In this document: in pieces, positions 39,384-51,993 of the stretch
Numbering within the stretch: the stretch's first letter is position 1
Layout: each line of letters begins with the position of its first letter
Assembly (NCBI GenBank): GCA_020850835.1
Contig: JADZDX010000050.1
Coordinates: forward strand, 1 to 52,012
Direction: 5' to 3'
Length of the DNA: 52,012 bases
DNA from: Fimbriimonadaceae bacterium
GTDB taxonomy: Bacteria > Armatimonadota > Fimbriimonadia > Fimbriimonadales > Fimbriimonadaceae
Position numbers and translations under genes: made by a program
The notes under the pieces: model-generated
The model's input: the letters and a program-made list of their open reading frames with translations, nothing else
Databases searched by the model: none
Told to the model about the DNA's origin: nothing

Positions 39384-42300
39384 TCAGCGACCTGTGGTCG
39401 GCGACAGCGGTTGCATCGCCTCTTCAACAGTGATCCAGCCGTCGTGATTTCGATCTAGGTATGAAGCACGATTGCTGCCCGCCTCCTTCACTGCGTCGGC
39501 AACTGAAATGAGACGCCGGATGGGGTCACGATCACGCGAGTAATTGCCCGGCAGCGTTCCATCCAAGAGCCCGAAGTTCGATGAGATGAACGTGAAGTCA
39601 GCACCATCCACGACCCCATTTCCAGAAATATCCGCATGGCGGAATAAAGGATTGAACAACAAGGAGAGAGGTGAATCAGCGCCCGGCGCACTGCCATAGT
39701 TGACCGCGTAGACCACGTAGTCGCCAATGTCAATTCGTCCATCACGGTTGATATTGCCTCCAAGAAGTGTCATATCTACTTCGTAGTTATCACCGTCCCA
39801 TTGGAGCATTCCGAATGAACGCAGCGAGTGCAACTCGTCCTTGACGCTGATCGCGTAGGTGCTCAGGTTATCATCGGGCAAGAACCCATCCTGCGGACCA
39901 AACACGACCGTCGCATGACCTGTGGAATCAAAGACCACGTCACGTGAGACGTCCACTGGTGGATTAGAGCCGCCAGCTGTCCCTCCGAGCCACATCGTCA
40001 TTCCCCTTGTGGTAGGCCCGACTGCCGCAAAGCTCTGCAACGTCAAGTTAAGCGTGATCGTTGTCCCGGCGACATTAATGTTCACCGTTGCCAGAGCCGA
40101 ATCCACGGTGCCGTCATTCACCTTAAAGGTGAAGGAGTCCGGTCCTGAGTAGTTGGGCGTTGGTGTGTAGGTCACATCGGCGCCAGATTGCGCCAACGTG
40201 CCATGGCTGGGCGGCGTGACGATGACAAAGGTCAACGTATTGGCCGGTAGATCTGCATCCGTTCCCGTCAGCGTAATGGCCAAGTCCGTGTTCACCTGCG
40301 CGGTGACCGATTGCCCATTGGCAACGGGCGCCACGTTGACCTCGTCAACTTGGATCACCACCACCTCGTCCGCGGTCAGGGCTCCATCGCTCACGCGTAC
40401 CGTGAATGTAACCGTTGTTGGCCCTTGCGCCTCGGTCGGCGTCCAACTGAACACACCGGTGTTGGCGTCAATGGTGGCGCCGCTTGGCGCACCGATCAGG
40501 CTATAGGTGAGTACATTTGCCGGCAGATCCGCATCATGTCCTTCGGCATCGAAGGTGATCGGACTCATTTCGGGAGCCGTAATGTCGGCTATCGCATCAA
40601 TAGTTGGTGCGACATTAGCTTCACCCACGTGGATTGTTACCGATTCATCTGCATCCAAAGTGCCATCGCTAACCCGGACCGTGAACGTATAGTCGTTCGG
40701 CCCTTGGGCTTCCGTTGGCGTCCAGCTGAAGACACCCGTATTCGCGTCAATTACCGCTCCACTCGGAGCACCCACCAAGCTGTAGGTGAGCGTCTGAGCC
40801 GGCAGATCCGCGTCATGACCATCAGCATCGAAGGTGATCAAGGTCATCTCATCAGCCGTGATGTCGCTAATCGAATCAATAGTTGGGGCTTCGTTGACTT
40901 CGTTGACATGGATCGTGATCGTCTCACTGTCGGATCCTCCATTGCCATCGCTGACCTCAAAGGTTACGGTGTAATCACCGGGGCCTTGTACTTCGGAGGG
41001 TGTCCAATTGAAGGTATCGCCTACAAGGGTAGCCCCCAGAGGAAGGCCCGTTGCGGAGTAGGCGGGAACTCCACCATCAATATCTGATGAGCTCAAGGTG
41101 AAGGAAAGGAGCGAATGCTCGTTGACTGACTTATCGCCAATTGTCGTTAGCGAGGGAGGATCGTTGACGGGAACCACCGTTATCGACACGGTTGCCGGCG
41201 CGGAGTCCAACGTTACGTCAGTCGCCGTGAACGTAAAGCTATCCGAACCCGCGTAGTTTGGATCCGGAGCATAAGTCAAGTTTGGAGCTACGCCGCTTAG
41301 CGTGCCATGAGCCGGAGGCGTCACCACAGTGTAGGTTAAAGGAACTTCAAATGAGTCCGTGTCCGAACCTGCCAATGTGATCCCTACCGAACCATCCTCT
41401 GTTACCGAAACCGATTGGCTATTGGCCGTCGGTGCTGTATTCGAAGTCACCATCTGAACGGTGCCTGTGCCCGTTGCCGCAACAGGACCCGAGATCCCAC
41501 CAGTGTGCAAGGTGTACGTTGTACTGATGTCAATTGGCGCCGCAAACAAGAGGGTTTCCAAATAGGCCCGCGCATTCATCAGCTTTTCGGCAGGTGTACT
41601 TCCCAGTTCTGGAGGCGTCGCGTCCCAAGCATTACCAACCCCGACGTATACCAATTCATCAACTGGCGTTGACCCCGGCGTTACATTGGAGTTATAAGTG
41701 AGGTCATCGCCGGTGCCCTTGATCCGGTCCGGGCCGTAATCAATACCAACACGATGCGCCGCGTAAGTGAGTCCGACAAAGTCACCCTCGTACGAGAGGT
41801 CGTTATCGTCATTGCTGGAACTCATATCAAACTCCAGGTCCTCTAGGTTAAACCGCGTGCCGTTGCCCAAGATATGCAGACCGTAGTGCATTCGATGCCC
41901 GAGTTCTGCATCAAACGGTGCACTTGGATTCAGCACTCCAAGCCAGAACGGGTAATTCGTCACTACGGCATCAGACCATACAATCTGCGTAGGTAACTCG
42001 TAGGCGGTCGGGTCAGTTGACCTCAAGCCATCCGGAACTCCCGGAGTATGCTCAAGGCTGTTGAGCGCACGAACTCGATAGCCATCGTAACTTGGAGAGC
42101 CATACGCGTTTGGAGCCGGTGAGCCAAACACCTGGACGGAGATGTTCGAGACATCGCTGACGGTGATCGTCACCGTTGCAACATTCGAATCGACTGTCCC
42201 ATCGTTCGCCTTGAACGTAAAGGTATCCACGCCAGTGAAGATGCCGGTCGGGGCGTAGACCCAGTTCGGCCCGGTGCCGCTCAGTGTTCCGTGAGCTGGA

Positions 42301-45300
42301 GGCGTCACCACGGTGTAGGTCAAGGGATCGCTGTCGGGATCGTTGGCCGTTACCGGAGTATTGACCGAAGTATTTTCGTTAGTCGAAAAACTAGCGTCAT
42401 TCGCTACCGGCGGCTGATTCACATTGTTCACAGTGATGCTCACCGTCGTGGCCGATGAAGTTGCATATACGTCCGTCGCCGTAAACGTGAAGCTGTCCGG
42501 ACCCGTGTAATTCGCATTCGGAGTGTAAGTCACATTCGGAGCCGTACCCGTGACCGTCCCATGAGCCGGTTGACCATATGCATAGGTCAAAGGAACTTCA
42601 AACGCATTCGAGTCCGTCGCCGAAAGGACAACCGGGAGCGACGTGTTCTCATCCATCACCAAGGTCTGCGGACTGCCCAACGGTGCAACATTCGACGTCA
42701 CCATCTGAACCGTAGCCGATGCAGACCCTAGGACAGGGCTCGCATGGTTGCTCTCGTGCAGGGTGTAGGTCGTACTGATGTCAATTGGGTCAACCGAGAG
42801 AATCGTCTCCAGATAGGAGCGCATGCTCACCATCTTGTCGTAATCGGTTGCTCCAGGCTCGAAGGTAGCGTCCCAAGCATTACCGATGCCCACATAGACC
42901 AACTCATCAACCATCATCTCCGCCGGGATATCATCTGTCTGGTAGACAATGTCATCACCCGTACCCTTGATGCGGTCGGGACCGTAGTCAATTCCCTTGC
43001 GGCTTGGACCGTAGAAATCGGGGTACGGATAGTTCGGATCAGTTCCATCAAACCAACCGTCAAAGTCCATATCATTCCCCGAGTCGCTTGAATTCATATC
43101 GAAATCAAGGGCCGATAGGCTGAAGCGGGTGCCATTGCCCAAGATATGAACACCAAAGTGCATTCGGTGTCCATATTCGCCCGCGAATGGAGCCGATGGA
43201 TGAAGGACATTCATCCAGAAGCCAAATGGCGTCGCGACGTTCTCGTACCAAGCAACCGTCGCAGGAGTCTCGTAGGCCGTCGGATCAACCAGTCGCGATA
43301 GAATATCCGGGTGGCTGGGATCTTCCAAGCTATCCAAAGCATTGTCTCGGTAACCAGGCCAGCTCGGTGAACCATACGCATTCGGAGCCGGTGAGCCTAA
43401 GACCTCCATCGTTACCGGAGGCGCAGCCATAACCGTAAGGCTGACAGTTGCGGTGTTCGAATCCTCATGACCATCATTCGCCTTAAAGGTAAAGCTGTCG
43501 CTGCCGACATAATTCTCAGCTGGCGTGTAAACCCAGCTCGGAGCGGTGCCGCTTAAAGTGCCATGAGCTGGAGGCGTCACCACAGTGTAAGTCAAAGGAT
43601 CGCTGTCCGGATCAGTGGCCACACCCGTGGCCGACACAGGGGCATTCTTGCCGGTGCTGTAGCTTGCATCTGAAGCCACCGGGGCATCATTCGTGTTGTT
43701 CACAGTGATGCTCACCGTCGTGGCCGATGAAGTTGCATATACGTCTGTCGCCGTAAACGTGAAGCTGTCCGGACCCGTGTAATTCGCATTCGGAGTGTAA
43801 GTCACATTCGGAGCTGTACCCGTGACCGTCCCGTGAGCCGGTTGACTATATGCATAGGTCAAGGGAACTTCAAACGCATTCGAGTCCGTCGCCGAAAGGA
43901 CGACCGGGAGCGAAGTGTTCTCATCCATCACCAAGGTCTGGGGACTGCCCACCGGAGCGACATTCGACGTCACCATGGTCACGGTGTCACTACCCGTGGC
44001 AATGATGGCTCCCAAATGACCACCGTTATGAAGGGTCACCGTGCCTGAGATATCAATATCCTGATTCCCGAGAATCTCTTCCAGGTACGCACGGCCGGCA
44101 ACCAAGGCTTCGGTCGGCGTCGGGTACGTCATGTCGGTCACCGCGGCCCAAGCATTGCCCGGACCCCGGAACATCAACTCATCCACTAACTGGTTATCAG
44201 GGCCCGAATTGATGATTGTGTCGTCGCCACCACCCTTCATTCGGTCAGCGCCGTAGTTGATACCAACCAAATCAGCACCGTAGTTGTAACGCACATCCAT
44301 CCAGCCATCGTTATCCATGTCGTTCGAGCCTTCGGTCGAATTCATGTCGAACTCAATGTCCTCCAAGCTGAACAGGTGCCCATTACCAAGCACATGGAAG
44401 GTGTACTGCAATCGGTGCCCAAGATCAGTATCAAACGGCGCGGCAGGGTTGAGTACACCCATCCAGAAATAGAAGTTCGTTACCGTATTATCGGACCAGA
44501 CAATCTGGGTCGGCAATTCGTAAGCATAGGGCGTTACAGTGCGCAAGCCAATTGGCGTGCCAGGCGTATTTTCGAGGCTACTCAAGGCATTGGCAAGCCA
44601 ACCATTGTAGCTATTGGTCGCGCCATAAACATTCGGCGCCGGCGATGCATAAACACCGACTGTTGGTGTTGCGCCATTGACGGTCAGGTCAATCGTGGCC
44701 TCGCCTGAATCTACCGTTCCGTCGTTCACCTTAAACTTGAAGGAATCTGGGCCCGAATAATTTAGATCGGGCGTGTAGGTCAAGTTAGGAGCGGTACCGC
44801 TAAGGGCACCGTGGGTCGGCAACTGCGTAACCGCATAGGTCAATGGATCGCTATCAGGGTCTGTACCTGCGAGCGTGATTGATTTTGGCGTATTGATGTT
44901 GGTCGAGTAACTGCCGCCCGTCGCAACGGGAGGCGCATTGCTGCTACTGACGGTCACGGTCAGCGTTGCCGAGTTTGAATCTTGGTCGGAGTCGTCAAAT
45001 TTGTAAGTGAGAACGGCCGTTCCCGTCGTCCCATTGGGTGTGTAGGTGTAGCTACCGTCATTGCCAAGGCTAAAGGAGCCCGGCCCCGACTGGCTCACTA
45101 CGGTGGCATTCTGCTTGACCTCGCCCGAATCATTGGTGAGGACATTGCCATTGATTGGTGTGGCATCGTCGGTAGAGCTGGCGTCATTGTTCGCCACCGG
45201 TGCGAGCCAGGGCTCGGGCGACCAGTCAATGCCCCGGTATGAGGCCGTTGACCCAGCAGCCCCAGCCACCGTCGCTTCTACGGTGAACGTAGAACCCGTG

Positions 45301-47009
45301 TCAACTACTTTCAAAACGTTGTTGTTTGCACTGTTCCCTGTCCCGCCGGTAGTGATGTAAAGACGTGGCTCCGGCAAAGCATTGCGAACTAGATGCAAAG
45401 ACCTAGCATAAACGCTTCCGATCGCAGCTGAATTCAGCGAATAAGCGAAAGACCATGAACTACCGTCACTCGTGTATTTCCGGACGACGGAAGTTCCGGA
45501 CGCAGTTGAAGAGCTGTCAAGCAACACATAAAGCGTCCGTGGATTATCAAACGCAAAATCTTGACAGTTGCTGAGGCCCGTCAGAGCGCCTATTGACGCG
45601 GAGGTAGCCGTGCCGGAAGGCAACGTTGGATAGGCGTTGATCGCCGAACTGGCGCTCCAGTACAGGCGATTATTGAAAATATTGAGAACTCGGGCATTGG
45701 AACCAGACACCGTAGATACGGTTGCCGGAGTAGACATGTTTACTTGGCTAGCCGCGTTGGAAAAGTACGCCGTTATGGAGTTGAACGCAGTGGCGGATCG
45801 ATTTTGTGTCGTCGCACTGAAATTTCTAAATGAGGCCGAATGATCCCCGCTAACCCAAGCCAAGGTGCGCTGGGTCGTTGACGCGTTGGCGGTATCTACT
45901 CCAGGTTGCGCATTGTATCCAAAGTACAAGACTTCGGACCCCTCAAGAGTTCGTTTCAGGTAATCACTGTAAGCATAATTTCCCAATGCCGCCGCTCTGC
46001 TGCCTGCTGGTCCAGCGGACAACTGGATGAGATCACTTGGCAACTGATTAATGCCGTCTGGATCGAGCGCTACGATTGCCGAATTGGCGGCGAGGCCTGA
46101 GCCCAAGGCAAGGGTACCAACACTACTGATACGAGTCGCCCACAGTGAGCGGCGAGCCCTTGGCTGAACATAGAAAAACTGGGTACCGGGGTGGTTTGCG
46201 GAGGAGAAATCCTGGCCTCGCGGTTCGTCTAGATTTGCTGTGCTGGAACTGGCCCCAATATCCGGCAGGAACTGATTTGACAGAAAGTCGCCGCCCGGAC
46301 TACTAATGAAGGCAATCACCTTAACACTCTGATTGATGGTCCCCAATAGCCCCAAAGGAATCTTGAGCTCCAAGCCTGTATTACTCAGAGCCGGGACTTG
46401 ACCATTCGCCGAGCCCCCACTGACCCCTAGCGCATTGGTGTTGTTGATCGCGGCTTCCACGCCAAGCATGCCGGAACCGATGGTCCAAGTGCCCGATCCT
46501 CCGTCAACCGTACTGCTCCCCACGTATTGCTTGAGTCCACCGGTACCGGTCGGAAGATTCTCATAGTCCAAATAAAGGTTTGAACCCGAGATGTTGAAGA
46601 CAAACGCATGGTCTGCGGCGAAGCCACTTTCAAAAGTCAGCCCATTAGGCCCGCCAGAGTCCCCGAGCCTCAACAAAGAGGCAAGGTTTACGTCATTATC
46701 GCCCCGAAGACGATTCTGTCCGGACCCAGAATCCGTGTCCAGAAAGACAAAGAGCTTGTTGCCGCCGGCTTGCAAATTACCATTGAGGAACAGATTAAGA
46801 TTGCCGCCGCCGATGTAGCTATAGGCTGCATCCAATTCGCTCTGGTTATCGCCGTAACCAGTCTGAACGGTCTGCCAGACCCGAGGGAAGCCGTATAAAT
46901 AGTCTCTCGTACCATCTACGGTGACCGCTTGACCGTATCCGGTCGTCGCGCCTCCCACCACAGCCATGCTCAGCATTGAGCGAACGAACAAACTCGAAGT
47001 CCTCTTCAT
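39384..47009 (-). CDS. Giant secreted multidomain repeat protein (cadherin/Ig-like repeats, dockerin-like C-terminus)
   Basis: 2541 aa; signal peptide; 'TYTPNANYTGPDSFTFTATDV' type repeats; putative Ig/cadherin repeats 'GVFSWTPTEAQGPNDYTFTVRVSDG'; Ca-binding 'GGNINRDGRIDIGDYVVYAVNYG...ADISGNGVVDGADFTFISSNFG'. Confidence 0.88.
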   Translation of the reverse strand: MKRTSSLFVRSMLSMAVVGGATTGYGQAVTVDGTRDYLYGFPRVWQTVQTGYGDNQSELDAAYSYIGGGNLNLFLNGNLQAGGNKLFVFLDTDSGSGQNRLRGDNDVNLASLLRLGDSGGPNGLTFESGFAADHAFVFNISGSNLYLDYENLPTGTGGLKQYVGSSTVDGGSGTWTIGSGMLGVEAAINNTNALGVSGGSANGQVPALSNTGLELKIPLGLLGTINQSVKVIAFISSPGGDFLSNQFLPDIGASSSTANLDEPRGQDFSSANHPGTQFFYVQPRARRSLWATRISSVGTLALGSGLAANSAIVALDPDGINQLPSDLIQLSAGPAGSRAAALGNYAYSDYLKRTLEGSEVLYFGYNAQPGVDTANASTTQRTLAWVSGDHSASFRNFSATTQNRSATAFNSITAYFSNAASQVNMSTPATVSTVSGSNARVLNIFNNRLYWSASSAINAYPTLPSGTATSASIGALTGLSNCQDFAFDNPRTLYVLLDSSSTASGTSVVRKYTSDGSSWSFAYSLNSAAIGSVYARSLHLVRNALPEPRLYITTGGTGNSANNNVLKVVDTGSTFTVEATVAGAAGSTASYRGIDWSPEPWLAPVANNDASSTDDATPINGNVLTNDSGEVKQNATVVSQSGPGSFSLGNDGSYTYTPNGTTGTAVLTYKFDDSDQDSNSATLTVTVSSSNAPPVATGGSYSTNINTPKSITLAGTDPDSDPLTYAVTQLPTHGALSGTAPNLTYTPDLNYSGPDSFKFKVNDGTVDSGEATIDLTVNGATPTVGVYASPAPNVYGATNSYNGWLANALSSLENTPGTPIGLRTVTPYAYELPTQIVWSDNTVTNFYFWMGVLNPAAPFDTDLGHRLQYTFHVLGNGHLFSLEDIEFDMNSTEGSNDMDNDGWMDVRYNYGADLVGINYGADRMKGGGDDTIINSGPDNQLVDELMFRGPGNAWAAVTDMTYPTPTEALVAGRAYLEEILGNQDIDISGTVTLHNGGHLGAIIATGSDTVTMVTSNVAPVGSPQTLVMDENTSLPVVLSATDSNAFEVPLTYAYSQPAHGTVTGTAPNVTYTPNANYTGPDSFTFTATDVYATSSATTVSITVNNTNDAPVASDASYSTGKNAPVSATGVATDPDSDPLTYTVVTPPAHGTLSGTAPSWVYTPAENYVGSDSFTFKANDGHEDSNTATVSLTVMAAPPVTMEVLGSPAPNAYGSPSWPGYRDNALDSLEDPSHPDILSRLVDPTAYETPATVAWYENVATPFGFWMNVLHPSAPFAGEYGHRMHFGVHILGNGTRFSLSALDFDMNSSDSGNDMDFDGWFDGTDPNYPYPDFYGPSRKGIDYGPDRIKGTGDDIVYQTDDIPAEMMVDELVYVGIGNAWDATFEPGATDYDKMVSMRSYLETILSVDPIDISTTYTLHESNHASPVLGSASATVQMVTSNVAPLGSPQTLVMDENTSLPVVLSATDSNAFEVPLTYAYGQPAHGTVTGTAPNVTYTPNANYTGPDSFTFTATDVYATSSATTVSITVNNVNQPPVANDASFSTNENTSVNTPVTANDPDSDPLTYTVVTPPAHGTLSGTGPNWVYAPTGIFTGVDTFTFKANDGTVDSNVATVTITVSDVSNISVQVFGSPAPNAYGSPSYDGYRVRALNSLEHTPGVPDGLRSTDPTAYELPTQIVWSDAVVTNYPFWLGVLNPSAPFDAELGHRMHYGLHILGNGTRFNLEDLEFDMSSSNDDNDLSYEGDFVGLTYAAHRVGIDYGPDRIKGTGDDLTYNSNVTPGSTPVDELVYVGVGNAWDATPPELGSTPAEKLMNARAYLETLLFAAPIDISTTYTLHTGGISGPVAATGTGTVQMVTSNTAPTANSQSVSVTEDGSVGITLAGSDTDSFEVPLTYTVVTPPAHGTLSGVAPNLTYAPDPNYAGSDSFTFTATDVTLDSAPATVSITVVPVNDPPSLTTIGDKSVNEHSLLSFTLSSSDIDGGVPAYSATGLPLGATLVGDTFNWTPSEVQGPGDYTVTFEVSDGNGGSDSETITIHVNEVNEAPTIDSISDITADEMTLITFDADGHDADLPAQTLTYSLVGAPSGAVIDANTGVFSWTPTEAQGPNDYTFTVRVSDGTLDADESVTIHVGEANVAPTIDAIADITAPEMSPITFDAEGHDADLPANVLTYSLIGAPSGATIDANTGVFSWTPTEAQGPTTVTFTVRVSDGALTADEVVVIQVDEVNVAPVANGQSVTAQVNTDLAITLTGTDADLPANTLTFVIVTPPSHGTLAQSGADVTYTPTPNYSGPDSFTFKVNDGTVDSALATVNINVAGTTITLNLTLQSFAAVGPTTRGMTMWLGGTAGGSNPPVDVSRDVVFDSTGHATVVFGPQDGFLPDDNLSTYAISVKDELHSLRSFGMLQWDGDNYEVDMTLLGGNINRDGRIDIGDYVVYAVNYGSAPGADSPLSLLFNPLFRHADISGNGVVDGADFTFISSNFGLLDGTLPGNYSRDRDPIRRLISVADAVKEAGSNRASYLDRNHDGWITVEEAMQPLSPTTGR
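42424..42704 (-). repeat. Long near-identical internal repeat, copy B
   Basis: Gapless match at offset 1272 to 43696-43976; about 11 mismatches by manual comparison. Confidence 0.85.
43696..43976 (-). repeat. Long near-identical internal repeat, copy A
   Basis: See 42424-42704. Confidence 0.85.
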
Positions 47010-47234: not shown

Positions 47235-47957
47235 ATGAATCGCGGTCTTTACACAGCGGCGAGCGGAATGAGTTCCAGCCAAGTTTGGCTGGATACCGTC
47301 GCCAACAACCTCGCGAACGCCAGTGCGACTGGCTACAAGCGAGATGAAGTGGAGTTCGAAGAGAGCCTGCTACGCGAGTTACGAAGCAATGGCGGTCGCG
47401 GAAAGGTCGTCGGCGACCTGCAGAGCGGCCCCTTAGTCAGCAAGATCACGACAAGCTTCGAGCGCGGTAGTACGATTGCCACCGGCAATGGCCTAGATGT
47501 CGCCATTGAAACGCCCACTGGGATGTTCGCCATTGAAACCAAAGGGGGACCTAAGTACAGCCGTGCCGGCTCATTCACGCTGAATCAGAACCGCGAACTC
47601 ACCGACCAAGAAGGCCACCGAGTCTTGGATCAAGATCTTCGCCCCATTCGGATTGACGGAGACGGGTCAGTAAAGATTGGTCCTGATGGGACGGTGGAGC
47701 CCGGTCGACAGAAAGTCGGCGTGTTCAATGGCACCTTTGAAAAGGTCGGTTTGAATCTATTTTCCGCCCGTGGTCGGGTCTCGTTGCAAGAAAACGCGAT
47801 CCTGTCGCCCGGTGCCCTTGAATCCTCCAATGTGAATGTGGTCGCCACGATGATCGAAATGATCCAAGTTCAACGCCTCTTCGAGATGGCCCAGAAGTCG
47901 GTTCAGAACCACGACGAAACGACCGCCCAACTCATTAAGACCCTCAACCCTAACTAA
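47235..47957 (+). CDS. flgF: Flagellar basal-body rod protein FlgF
   Basis: 'MNRGLYTAASGMSSSQVWLDTVANNLANASATGYKRDEVEFEE'; precedes flgG. Confidence 0.88.
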   Translation: MNRGLYTAASGMSSSQVWLDTVANNLANASATGYKRDEVEFEESLLRELRSNGGRGKVVGDLQSGPLVSKITTSFERGSTIATGNGLDVAIETPTGMFAIETKGGPKYSRAGSFTLNQNRELTDQEGHRVLDQDLRPIRIDGDGSVKIGPDGTVEPGRQKVGVFNGTFEKVGLNLFSARGRVSLQENAILSPGALESSNVNVVATMIEMIQVQRLFEMAQKSVQNHDETTAQLIKTLNPN

Positions 47958-47962
47958 AGCCT

Positions 47963-48751
47963 ATGATGCGCGCACTCATAACCGCCGGCACCGGAATGGT
48001 GGCCCAACAAACTAACCTTGACGTCATCGCCAACAACCTGGCAAACGTCAACACGACTGCGTTCAAAGCTCAACGTGCCGAGTTTCATGACTTGATGTAC
48101 CAATCACTTTCAAGTAGCGGAGCCGAGCAGAGCGGCACCGTTAAGGCTCCGATGGCCAAGCAAGTCGGGCTTGGTACCATGTTCTCCGCTAACGCAAGCA
48201 ACTTCACGCAAGGAGCGATGCTCTCAACTGGAAATCCATTTGACGTGGCGATCACGGGCGATGGATTCTTTGCCGTGACCATTGGAGACGGAAGCACGGC
48301 ATACACGCGAGACGGGGCGCTGAAGCGCACGAACGACGGCACCCTGGTGACTAGTGACGGGTACGAGATCCAGCCCCAGATTACGGTGCCCGCCAATGCG
48401 ACGGCCTTCAACGTTTCGCCCAATGGAAATGTAACCGTCACGGTTCCGGGCGAGGACCAACCGCGCCTCCTCGGCACAATTCAGCTTGCTCTGTTCCCTA
48501 ATTCCAGCGGCCTTACCCGTATTGGACAGAACCTCTATAAAGCTGGCGGCGCCAGCGGAGAGGCTGTCGTGGTTAACCCAACTGAAGACGGAGCCGGCAC
48601 TTTGCAGAGCGGCTACCTCGAGGGCGGCAATGTCTCGATCGTGGAAGAAATGGTCCGCATGATCACCGCCCAGCGAGCCTACGAAATCAACTCCAAGGCG
48701 ATCCAAACCGCCGACGACATGCTGAACGTGCTGAACCAACTGAAGCGATGA
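47963..48751 (+). CDS. flgG: Flagellar basal-body rod protein FlgG
   Basis: 'MMRALITAGTGMVAQQTNLDVIANNLANVNTTAFKAQRAEFHDLMYQ'; C-terminal 'GNVSIVEEMVRMITAQRAYEINSKAIQTADDML'. Confidence 0.95.
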   Translation: MMRALITAGTGMVAQQTNLDVIANNLANVNTTAFKAQRAEFHDLMYQSLSSSGAEQSGTVKAPMAKQVGLGTMFSANASNFTQGAMLSTGNPFDVAITGDGFFAVTIGDGSTAYTRDGALKRTNDGTLVTSDGYEIQPQITVPANATAFNVSPNGNVTVTVPGEDQPRLLGTIQLALFPNSSGLTRIGQNLYKAGGASGEAVVVNPTEDGAGTLQSGYLEGGNVSIVEEMVRMITAQRAYEINSKAIQTADDMLNVLNQLKR

Positions 48752-49830
48752 ATAGCCTCCTTCTCTCACTCTTGATCGCGGACGCAGCCGTTCCCGTTAG
48801 CGTGGATGGAGAGGGCCTCCTCCGTTTTACGAGGGATGGCCGCACGGTCTACGCACGGTCAGCAGCGCTGACGGTCGTCCGAGGCCGCCTGGCGTTTCGG
48901 GATGCCTTTGTGCTCCCTACCATCGCCGTCTCGGATAACTTCTTGGTCTCCCGAGATGGGACCGTCATGGTCAATGGGAAATCCGCCGGACGCCTCGTAC
49001 TGGCGAAGTTTGCCGTCGGAGTTGCTCTCACTGAATCAGGCGGCTTCCTGATTTCTGCGTCGCGACCAGCCCTCGGTTCTGCCGGTCAAGAAGGCTTTGG
49101 ATGGATTGCTGGTTCGAAGGCGACAGTCGTCGCTTCGGCGGCCGTCTCGTCGGCCCAGGTCGTGGTCCGTGCCGAGTCCGTCGTAGACAACAAGACTTAC
49201 ACTCTCGCCGATATCGCTGATATTCGGCTACCCGAGGCCGTAAAGAACCAGATTGGCACCGTCATTATTGGCGATACTCCTCCGATCGGTATTGATCGAC
49301 GCGTTGATCGCGAACGAATCATGGTTCGGCTCCGCGTCAGTGGCTTCGACCCAACAACGTTCACCATTGAGGTACCAGATAGTGCTGTCGTTCGCCGTCC
49401 CAGCCAGCGCGTTGAGCACGAAAGGTTGATTGCTGCGGCAACAGCATCGCTGCGAAACCTCGTTGGCATCCAAGCTCAATTTAGTGACCTTAACCCCATG
49501 CCGGCCCTAATTGTTGGTCTGGGCGATATCTCCCTCAACGCCGTTAACCAGACGGTTAATTCAGGGAAAGCAAGCGTCCGAATCGAAGTGCTCGTGAATG
49601 GGCAGATCGCTACGAGCCGGACCGTCCAACTCGCCATCAGCGGCGCCGCGACCCTACCCAAGATCGGCGATATGATCACCGTTCGGGCCCGCTCCGGTGG
49701 CGTCCGAGTGGCTTTCACCGCGAAAGTCACTGGAGTTAAAGGTCCGGGACAGATCGAAGTCACGACTCAAGAGGGCGAGAAGCTCATGGGTGTGATCGTT
49801 GAGCCTGGCGTTGTGGAGATTAACCTATGA
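48748..49830 (+). CDS. flgA: Flagella basal body P-ring formation protein FlgA with N-terminal extension
   Basis: C-terminal SAF/ChapFlgA pattern 'LPKIGDMITVRARSGGVRVAFTAKVTGVKGPGQIEV'; locus between flgG and flgH; ATGA overlaps. Confidence 0.85.
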   Translation: MNSLLLSLLIADAAVPVSVDGEGLLRFTRDGRTVYARSAALTVVRGRLAFRDAFVLPTIAVSDNFLVSRDGTVMVNGKSAGRLVLAKFAVGVALTESGGFLISASRPALGSAGQEGFGWIAGSKATVVASAAVSSAQVVVRAESVVDNKTYTLADIADIRLPEAVKNQIGTVIIGDTPPIGIDRRVDRERIMVRLRVSGFDPTTFTIEVPDSAVVRRPSQRVEHERLIAAATASLRNLVGIQAQFSDLNPMPALIVGLGDISLNAVNQTVNSGKASVRIEVLVNGQIATSRTVQLAISGAATLPKIGDMITVRARSGGVRVAFTAKVTGVKGPGQIEVTTQEGEKLMGVIVEPGVVEINL

Positions 49831-50435
49831 AGAAACTACTCCCCCTCATCATCGCTATTGCGCCTTTGGCCTACGGTCAGGACGTGATTGACAAGAATGC
49901 TCAAGGCGTCTCAGGGTCCACCTGGGAAGATGGAAAGAACCCTCTGCTTGATCGGACCGCTCGTCGTGCAGGTGATCTCCTGACTATTTTGATCAGCGAA
50001 AGTAGCGTGGCCAGTTTCTCAGCTACGACAACCGCCAGCAAGACAAGCGACATGAGCGCCGTTCAGCAAGTCGTCAAAGGGCTCTTTGGTTTCTTGGACC
50101 TCAATGGCACCAAGACCGCCAGCGGATCCAAGACCGATAACGGCACCGGCCAAACTAACCAGAATGGTTCTCTGAGAGCCAGACTTACCGCCGAGGTACT
50201 CGCCGTGACACCCAATGGCCACCTCATTATCGAGGGAACTCGCAAGATTGTTATCAATCGAGAGACCCAGTTGTTTAAGCTCACGGGCATTGTGCGGCGT
50301 GACGACATCACACCCGATAACTCGGTGCTTAGCGAGTCCATTGCCCAAGCTGAAATCCGGTTTGAGGGCAAGGGGCAGATCGCCAACAAGCAACGCCAAG
50401 GACTTCTCTCACAACTTATGGACTGGCTATTCTAA
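49827..50435 (+). CDS. flgH: Flagellar L-ring protein FlgH
   Basis: 'RRAGDLLTILISESSVASFSATTTASK', 'LTAEVLAVTPNGHLIIEGTRKIVINRETQLFKLTGIVRRDDI'. Confidence 0.95.
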   Translation: MKKLLPLIIAIAPLAYGQDVIDKNAQGVSGSTWEDGKNPLLDRTARRAGDLLTILISESSVASFSATTTASKTSDMSAVQQVVKGLFGFLDLNGTKTASGSKTDNGTGQTNQNGSLRARLTAEVLAVTPNGHLIIEGTRKIVINRETQLFKLTGIVRRDDITPDNSVLSESIAQAEIRFEGKGQIANKQRQGLLSQLMDWLF

Positions 50436-51613
50436 TGCTGAAAGAAACACTCTCACTATTAGCCTTTGGTCTTGCCATTGTCGGCATCGCCCAAATCGAC
50501 CCCGCCAGCGGGGGCACTTCCACTCCAGTCAAGTTCAGCAACGAGCAACAAGCACTTGACGCGGAGCGAAACGGGATCCAAGTCCGGATCAAGGATGTGG
50601 GGCGCTTCCGAGGAGTCCGGCGCAATCAATTGCTGGGGTATGGCTTGATCGTTGGTCTCGAGGGCACAGGCGACTCGCGAAAGACGCCGTTTACCCAAAC
50701 GCTCCTTGCCAACGCAATGAAGAGCTTTGGAACGATGATTGAACCAGGTTCAATGGAGGCCAAAAACATCGCTACGGTTGCGATCACGGCTGAGTTGCCC
50801 CCGTTTGCCAGCCCGGGAAACTCTATTGATATCACAGTTCAAAGCATCGGCGATGCCAAGAGCCTGCAAGGAGGGTACCTACTTCAGGCCCCGCTCTTCG
50901 GGGCGAATGACAAGGAGAACGCAATCGCCGTTGCTCAAGGAGCGATCATCATTGGCGGCTTCAACGTTTCGGCGGGCGGAAACAAGGTCCAAAAAAACCA
51001 TGTGAACGTAGGTCGAATCCCCGGTGGGGCTATCGTCGAGCGAGTCATCCCCTACCAACTCGTGTACAGCGGCAAGATGTTCGTTGAACTTGATGAAGGT
51101 GATCTAACTACGGCCAATCGCATTGCAACCCGCATCCGCGAAGTCAAGCCCGAATTCAATCCAGTCGCCGTTGATGGCGGCACGATTCAGATCGACCTAC
51201 CCAATTCGCTTAGCCCCGTCCAAGCGATGAGTCTGATTGAGATGGTCGAGGTGAAAGTCGATATCCCAGCCATGGTCATCGTCAACGAGCGAACGGGCAC
51301 GATCGCGATGGGAGCGAATGTCCGGCTCGGCCCTGCGGTCATCTCACAGGGCTCCCTCCAAATCATCATCGAAGAATTCAATGAGGTAAGCCAGCCCGGC
51401 CCCTTCTCCAATGGTCGAACTCGTGATGTCACGAACCAGAAGGTGGACGCGGTTGAGGACACTGCCCAAGTCGGACTCCTCAACCCGGTGACGACGATCG
51501 CGGATCTCGCGAGAGTCTTTCAGGCCCTCAAAGTAACCCCACGGGACGCCATTGCCATCTTGCAGGCCCTTAAAGAACAAGGTTCCCTAAAAGCGAGGTT
51601 AAAGATCCAATGA
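50435..51613 (+). CDS. flgI: Flagellar P-ring protein FlgI
   Basis: 'VRIKDVGRFRGVRRNQLLGYGLIVGLEGTGDS', 'NPVAVDGGTIQIDLP'. Confidence 0.97.
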   Translation: MLKETLSLLAFGLAIVGIAQIDPASGGTSTPVKFSNEQQALDAERNGIQVRIKDVGRFRGVRRNQLLGYGLIVGLEGTGDSRKTPFTQTLLANAMKSFGTMIEPGSMEAKNIATVAITAELPPFASPGNSIDITVQSIGDAKSLQGGYLLQAPLFGANDKENAIAVAQGAIIIGGFNVSAGGNKVQKNHVNVGRIPGGAIVERVIPYQLVYSGKMFVELDEGDLTTANRIATRIREVKPEFNPVAVDGGTIQIDLPNSLSPVQAMSLIEMVEVKVDIPAMVIVNERTGTIAMGANVRLGPAVISQGSLQIIIEEFNEVSQPGPFSNGRTRDVTNQKVDAVEDTAQVGLLNPVTTIADLARVFQALKVTPRDAIAILQALKEQGSLKARLKIQ

Positions 51614-51993
51614 TTTCGCAGGTCTCGCTTTCGGCCGGTGAAGCCATGGGGCGGAAGCTCCTCAGCATTCCCGGAAACCACCCATTTGACCTCTTTGAAG
51701 GAATGCTGGGGGATGCCGCAAAGAAAGAACTTAAGGGTTTGAAGGATGCAACGCAGAAGATTGAGAGCATCTTCGTGAAAGACATCCTCAAGGTGATGCT
51801 CCCCAAGGGGTTTGGCGGTAGCGGCCCAATGGGTGATTTCGCCCGCGAAAACTTTATGAACACGATGTCCGATGTCGCGGCCAAGGGCGGCGGCATGGGG
51901 CTCGCCAAGATACTTGAGAGTAACTTGGCTGACTCACTCTATCGGCGAGAGGCTGCCCGCCTCATGGCCGATCCAACCCAAGAAAAACCATGA
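51610..51993 (+). CDS. flgJ: Rod-binding protein (FlgJ N-terminal domain only)
   Basis: 'KKELKGLKDATQKIESIFVKDILKVMLPKGFGGSGPMGDFARENFMNTMSDVAAKGGGMGLAKILESNL'. Confidence 0.88.
   Translation: MISQVSLSAGEAMGRKLLSIPGNHPFDLFEGMLGDAAKKELKGLKDATQKIESIFVKDILKVMLPKGFGGSGPMGDFARENFMNTMSDVAAKGGGMGLAKILESNLADSLYRREAARLMADPTQEKP

Follow-up and report, generated by a model that had tools for sequence, protein, structure and literature searches.

A FlgG-type rod domain fused to the flagellar P-ring chaperone FlgA in Fimbriimonadaceae

Introduction

Why would a flagellar P-ring chaperone carry a domain of the rod? In Salmonella, FlgA is needed for the P ring and its C-terminal domain binds the P-ring protein, FlgI; how FlgI is sorted to the rod is unknown (PMC4895218). 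Lys63 and Lys95 of FlgI face the acidic residues Asp109 and Asp154 of the distal rod protein, FlgG, and mutation of these lysines impairs P-ring assembly (PMC8298488). The question arises from contig JADZDX010000050.1 of a Fimbriimonadaceae bacterium, analyzed here over a stretch of 52,012 nucleotides (hereafter, the window). An earlier note, made from this DNA alone, had claimed that the N-terminal part of the encoded FlgA resembles the FlgG/FlgE core, that a P-ring chaperone is fused here to a rod-protein-like domain, and that such a fusion would couple P-ring assembly to the distal rod. Herein, we examine the nature, the distribution and the possible role of this domain.

Results

The flgA locus

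The end of the window contains plus-strand flagellar genes, overlapping or closely spaced, in the order flgF-G-A-H-I followed by a rod-binding gene. FlgF, the proximal rod protein, is encoded at 47235–47957 (TIGR02490, E 1.6e-43) and FlgG at 47963–48751 (TIGR02488, E 1.6e-95), with a 4-nt overlap between flgG and flgA. Downstream of flgA are flgH (49827–50435, plus strand; PF02107, E 7e-47), encoding the L-ring protein, and flgI (50435–51613, plus strand; PF02119, E 1e-109), encoding the P-ring protein that is the client of FlgA. The last gene, at 51610–51993, encodes a rod-binding protein resembling the N-terminal part of FlgJ (PF10135, E 4e-4, under the curated cut-off). Directly upstream of the flagellar genes and divergent from them, the minus strand encodes a predicted surface or secreted protein of 2541 aa (39384–47009) with ∼11 Big_9/cadherin-like repeats and, by eye, a dockerin-like C-terminal region.

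The flgA open reading frame occupies 48748–49830 on the plus strand and encodes 360 aa, the length given in the earlier note. Inspection by eye assigned a putative signal peptide, MNSLLLSLLIADA, to residues 1–13 (48748–48786), the N-terminus being hydrophobic in the window copy and its relatives. A FlgG-type D1 domain (residues ∼14–122; 48787–49113) was delimited using BLASTP, profile and Pfam searches, fold comparison and shuffled sequences. This is followed by a linker (residues 123–135; 49114–49152), identified from low model confidence and from the alignment of relatives, in which it comprises 10–58 aa and is rich in Ala, Pro, Thr and Ser. The remainder, residues 136–360 (49153–49827), is the classical FlgA core, the P-ring chaperone, recognized through ChapFlgA matches in relatives, the FlgA structure 3tee and the fold; it aligned end to end with ordinary FlgAs of ∼250 aa from other genomes. 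D1 is thus slightly shorter than the span originally proposed for the resemblance, 48748–49170, which starts with the putative signal peptide and runs on through the linker into the beginning of the core.

Homology of the N-terminal domain to FlgG

BLASTP aligned residues 17–128 of FlgA with the adjacent FlgG at 32% identity (E 8e-6). The local alignment of residues 14–124 with FlgG scored 78, which was reached by 0 of 1000 shuffled sequences (mean 32 ± 5.6; z ∼8). The FlgA core scored at chance against FlgG (320 of 1000 shuffles) and the N-terminal domain was weakly similar to its own FlgF in pairwise comparison (55 of 1000 shuffles). Among relatives, the score of the genome's own FlgA–FlgG pair was reached by none of 200 shuffles in 44 of 48 cases.

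A circular argument was avoided by using hhalign to compare a profile of the N-terminal domain only with FlgG and FlgF profiles built solely from loci without the fusion. The domain matched FlgG with an E value of 3e-18 and FlgF with 5e-10; in the control, the FlgA core yielded nothing of note against these profiles. Searches iterated on mixed FlgG and FlgA rows were not taken as proof because the two sets contaminate each other. An hmmsearch of PDB sequences with alignment A1 retrieved FlgG (6jf2/5wrh, E 4e-14, positions 14–136), FlgE (3a69, E 3e-8) and, over the C-terminal part, FlgA (3tee, E 6e-7); a profile search had been named in the earlier note as a possible refuter, and FlgG and FlgE were what it found. 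Searched against the genome at E ≤ 0.01, the A1 profile matched only flgG besides flgA itself, and the flgG product is the nearest homologue of the N-terminal domain in this genome.

Pfam models gave a concordant picture in relatives: PF22692 (FlgE/F/G D1) matched 35 of 45 at E ≤ 0.01, passing its curated cut-off in four (L005, L014, L022 and L034), and PF13144 (ChapFlgA) matched 33 of 45. One protein, L014, was above both curated cut-offs, at residues 21–80 and 321–380, respectively. A match to PA-IIL/CV-IIL lectins in single-sequence Pfam and PDB searches (E 0.08–0.13) was rejected as weak and unsupported by the profile and fold searches. For the window FlgA, single-sequence searches of Pfam and NCBIfam at their cut-offs recognized neither domain, and automatic annotation could well label the product hypothetical. 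This result, together with the four of 48 genome pairs whose score was matched by at least one shuffle, might be taken to indicate chance or the convergence of two small β-domains. Such an origin is exceedingly improbable, as the profile, curated-model and fold evidence agree and are co-linear over ∼110 residues. Overall, these data confirm that the N-terminal domain of FlgA is homologous to FlgG D1.

Predicted structure

An AlphaFold2 model of FlgA, computed with 45 sequences, had a mean pLDDT of 92 and comprised two well-formed β-rich parts, residues 15–121 and 137–359, with pLDDT <50 at residues 126–133. The pTM of 0.60 is consistent with two domains that have no fixed mutual orientation. 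Structure prediction was the other refuter that had been named. In a Foldseek search of the PDB, the rod fold came first: Salmonella rod and distal-rod chains were the best matches (7bin_l, E 4e-5; 7cbm_Q), together with FlgE D-I, and the FlgA crystal structures 3vjp and 3tee ranked next. Together, the profile, Pfam and fold data confirm that the window FlgA consists, after a putative signal peptide, of a FlgG-type D1, a flexible linker and a complete FlgA core, bearing out the notion of a chaperone fused to a rod-protein-like domain.

Distribution and origin of the fusion

A survey of FlgA architecture in Armatimonadota had been suggested in the earlier note. In the order that holds Fimbriimonadaceae, 95 of 113 genomes had a FlgA match, of which 76 carried D1: 70 of 72 in Fimbriimonadaceae, 5 of 6 in family f2, the single match in f4, neither the single match in f5 nor any of the 15 in f3. 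The FlgAs read from the other families of Armatimonadota all lacked D1. A FlgA with 93% identity to that of the window is filed under the name Fimbriimonadaceae bacterium.

In a tree of D1 sequences, those from FlgA (FlgA-N) formed one clade with support of 100/99. They were placed among the FlgG sequences and apart from FlgF, in a tree of 125 columns in which the FlgA-N stem is long. Mapped onto a tree built from FlgH, FlgI and FlgG, the presence of D1 requires three changes. Two g2 genomes, G075 and G076, as well as G072, have an ordinary FlgA without D1; G074, a close relative of G075 and G076, retains the domain. With other Armatimonadota as the outgroup, we read this pattern as one gain of the fusion after the split of f3, followed by losses in G072 and in G075/G076. 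The ordinary FlgAs of these three genomes indicate that D1 is dispensable for FlgA function.

In three close pairs, dN/dS was 0.07–0.10 for D1 and 0.09–0.12 for the core. D1 is under purifying selection, and the fusion is old and has been kept. These data bear on the idea that D1 is a general spacer, stabilizing or peptidoglycan-proximal, that has neither the rod nor FlgI as a specific partner. The repeated losses and the long branches, which reflect faster evolution of D1 than of FlgG, would suit a spacer. However, selection on D1 as strong as that on the core, its retention in nearly all Fimbriimonadaceae and the invariant or near-invariant residues G21, G23, R26, P57, G71, G81 and G118 make this reading rather improbable.

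An assembly, frameshift or start-call artefact that joins flgG to flgA was also considered. Two observations show how one could arise. A match from 13 to 380 in genome G173 was rejected as a fusion, as the underlying sequence is flgG, a TAA stop and flgA, which a search can bridge; similarly, the long FlgAs of f3 (L054–L056 and L062), considered as a second kind of N-terminal extension, were rejected as over-called starts. Nevertheless, the window contains a complete flgG before flgA, and the D1 of FlgA, preceded by a putative signal peptide of its own, is an additional copy that has diverged. As the same holds across the 76 genomes, an artefact is hardly credible.

Three further observations were made on these loci. 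In G173 (L064:2019–3665), flgG and flgA share a frame and are separated by one TAA and a few codons, an arrangement that may represent a precursor of a FlgG–FlgA fusion and that is a trap for automated fusion searches. In most of the f3 genomes read (L055, L058–L063), the ∼3 kb preceding flgA yielded no full-length flgG; instead, a partial FlgEFG-type match was located downstream of flgI, such that the operon looks rearranged. In FlgAs of other Armatimonadota (L067–L069, L071–L076, L078–L080 and L082), the core profile matches in two pieces with ∼30–65 residues between them, corresponding to an insert that precedes the C-terminal ∼60 residues.

Features of FlgG retained and lost in D1

FlgA D1 is co-linear with residues ∼93–217 of Salmonella FlgG (PF22692; PDB 5WRH, 6JF2, 7CBM and 7BIN) and has the same pattern of glycines and hydrophobic residues. 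By contrast, FlgG possesses D0 helices, an L-stretch and a type III export end, all of which FlgA D1 lacks. FlgA D1 ends before the segment equivalent to FlgG 218–225 and thus lacks the conserved E220/N223 region. Models of the terminal D0 helices, PF00460 and PF06429, did not match the window FlgA. Lacking D0 helices, FlgA is not a rod protein, can hardly polymerize and should not enter the rod. From the sequence, the hydrophobic N-terminus of FlgA probably replaces the N-terminal D0 helix of FlgG and directs Sec export, such that the protein would leave the cytoplasm by Sec and not by the flagellar exporter. D1 is likely to be an axial flagellar domain whose export route changed from the type III system to Sec.

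The surface charge of the domain also differs. The median net charge of D1 is −6 in FlgG and 0 in FlgA-N, and that of the window D1 is +4; this shift is attributable to the conserved arginines R26, R32, R82 and R106, which are mostly absent in FlgG. In counts that cover related, and hence not independent, sequences, an acidic residue occupies the Asp109 site of Salmonella FlgG in 32 of 48 FlgA-N (D30 in the window) and the Asp154 site in 38 of 48 (D70 in the window), versus 26 of 67 for the latter site in FlgG itself, and Leu takes the place of Glu203, the third acidic residue of FlgG, in 33 of 48. According to the alignment, Lys110 and Lys142 of the window FlgI are equivalent to Lys63 and Lys95 of the Salmonella protein.

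Discussion

The data are consistent with the hypothesis, to which we assign a probability of ∼0.7, that FlgG D1 was fused once to the P-ring chaperone FlgA in an ancestor within the order, and that it has a role at the interface between FlgI and the rod, by docking or by capping. According to this model, FlgA would reach the periplasm by Sec and its core would bind FlgI, as in Salmonella. The tether would place part of the FlgI–FlgG interface on the chaperone, and D1 would act at the FlgI–rod interface, such that the distal rod would be where P-ring subunits are delivered or released. The flgF-G-A-H-I order with overlapping genes was counted in favor of FlgA acting at the rod. The idea of the earlier note that the fusion would couple P-ring assembly to the distal rod is plausible and agrees with the ancestry of D1 and with the operon.

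With respect to the partner of D1, the charge shift and the retained acidic residues point in different directions, to the rod or to FlgI. In docking, D1 would seat the chaperone–FlgI complex on the strongly negative surface of the FlgG rod. We tentatively favor docking over capping, although we judge it slightly short of an even chance, because the change in net charge from −6 to ∼0, and to +4 in the window, suits a negative rod better than the positive belt of FlgI. In capping, a narrower form of the interface role, D1 would imitate the rod: it would cover the rod-facing side of FlgI on FlgA, block premature ring closure and be displaced by the real FlgG rod. The acidic residues at the Asp109 and Asp154 sites and the presence of both facing lysines in the window FlgI are what such a mimic should have; its neutral to positive overall charge and the loss of Glu203 are not. 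A weaker electrostatic match than that of the real rod is predicted, though a displaceable stand-in might need precisely this. On balance, we consider capping unlikely. Returning to the role at the interface as a whole, the chances appear even that the chaperone uses a Sec-exported, non-polymerizing copy of the rod surface domain to read or mimic the rod, such that a P-ring cannot start away from FlgG.

A natural fusion of a chaperone to a domain of the assembly site constitutes independent evidence for the action of FlgA at the FlgG rod. It bears on the mechanism by which FlgI is taken to the rod by FlgA, which is stated to be unknown (PMC4895218). That FlgA carries a domain of the FlgG shaft suggests a use for this piece: locating the site at which the chaperone works, or shielding its client. 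Moreover, a two-piece FlgA with a flexible linker, together with the natural losses of D1, provides a direct handle on the FlgA–FlgI–FlgG hand-over.

Compared with known systems, FlgG is the closest counterpart of FlgA-N: the D1 domains of FlgF and FlgE belong to the same superfamily, but all comparisons of sequence gave them a weaker match than FlgG. The core, residues 136–360, matches FlgA of Salmonella and E. coli (PF13144; PDB 3TEE, 3VJP and 3VKI) by profile and fold and, by analogy, probably works as these proteins do, chaperoning P-ring subunits in the periplasm and binding FlgI through its C-terminal domain. The enterobacterial FlgAs lack D1. The ordinary FlgAs of other Armatimonadota (L066–L082; ∼200–370 aa) share the homologous core and, in many cases, the flgF-G-A-H-I order, but their signal peptide continues into the core and a D1 match is absent. 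In E. coli, flgA lies apart from flgG and is divergent from flgB, whereas in the window it directly follows flgG. A literature search, mostly outside subscription journals, found no description of a FlgA–FlgG D1 fusion. The system, flagellar P-ring assembly, is a known one; the fused protein is a new form of FlgA.
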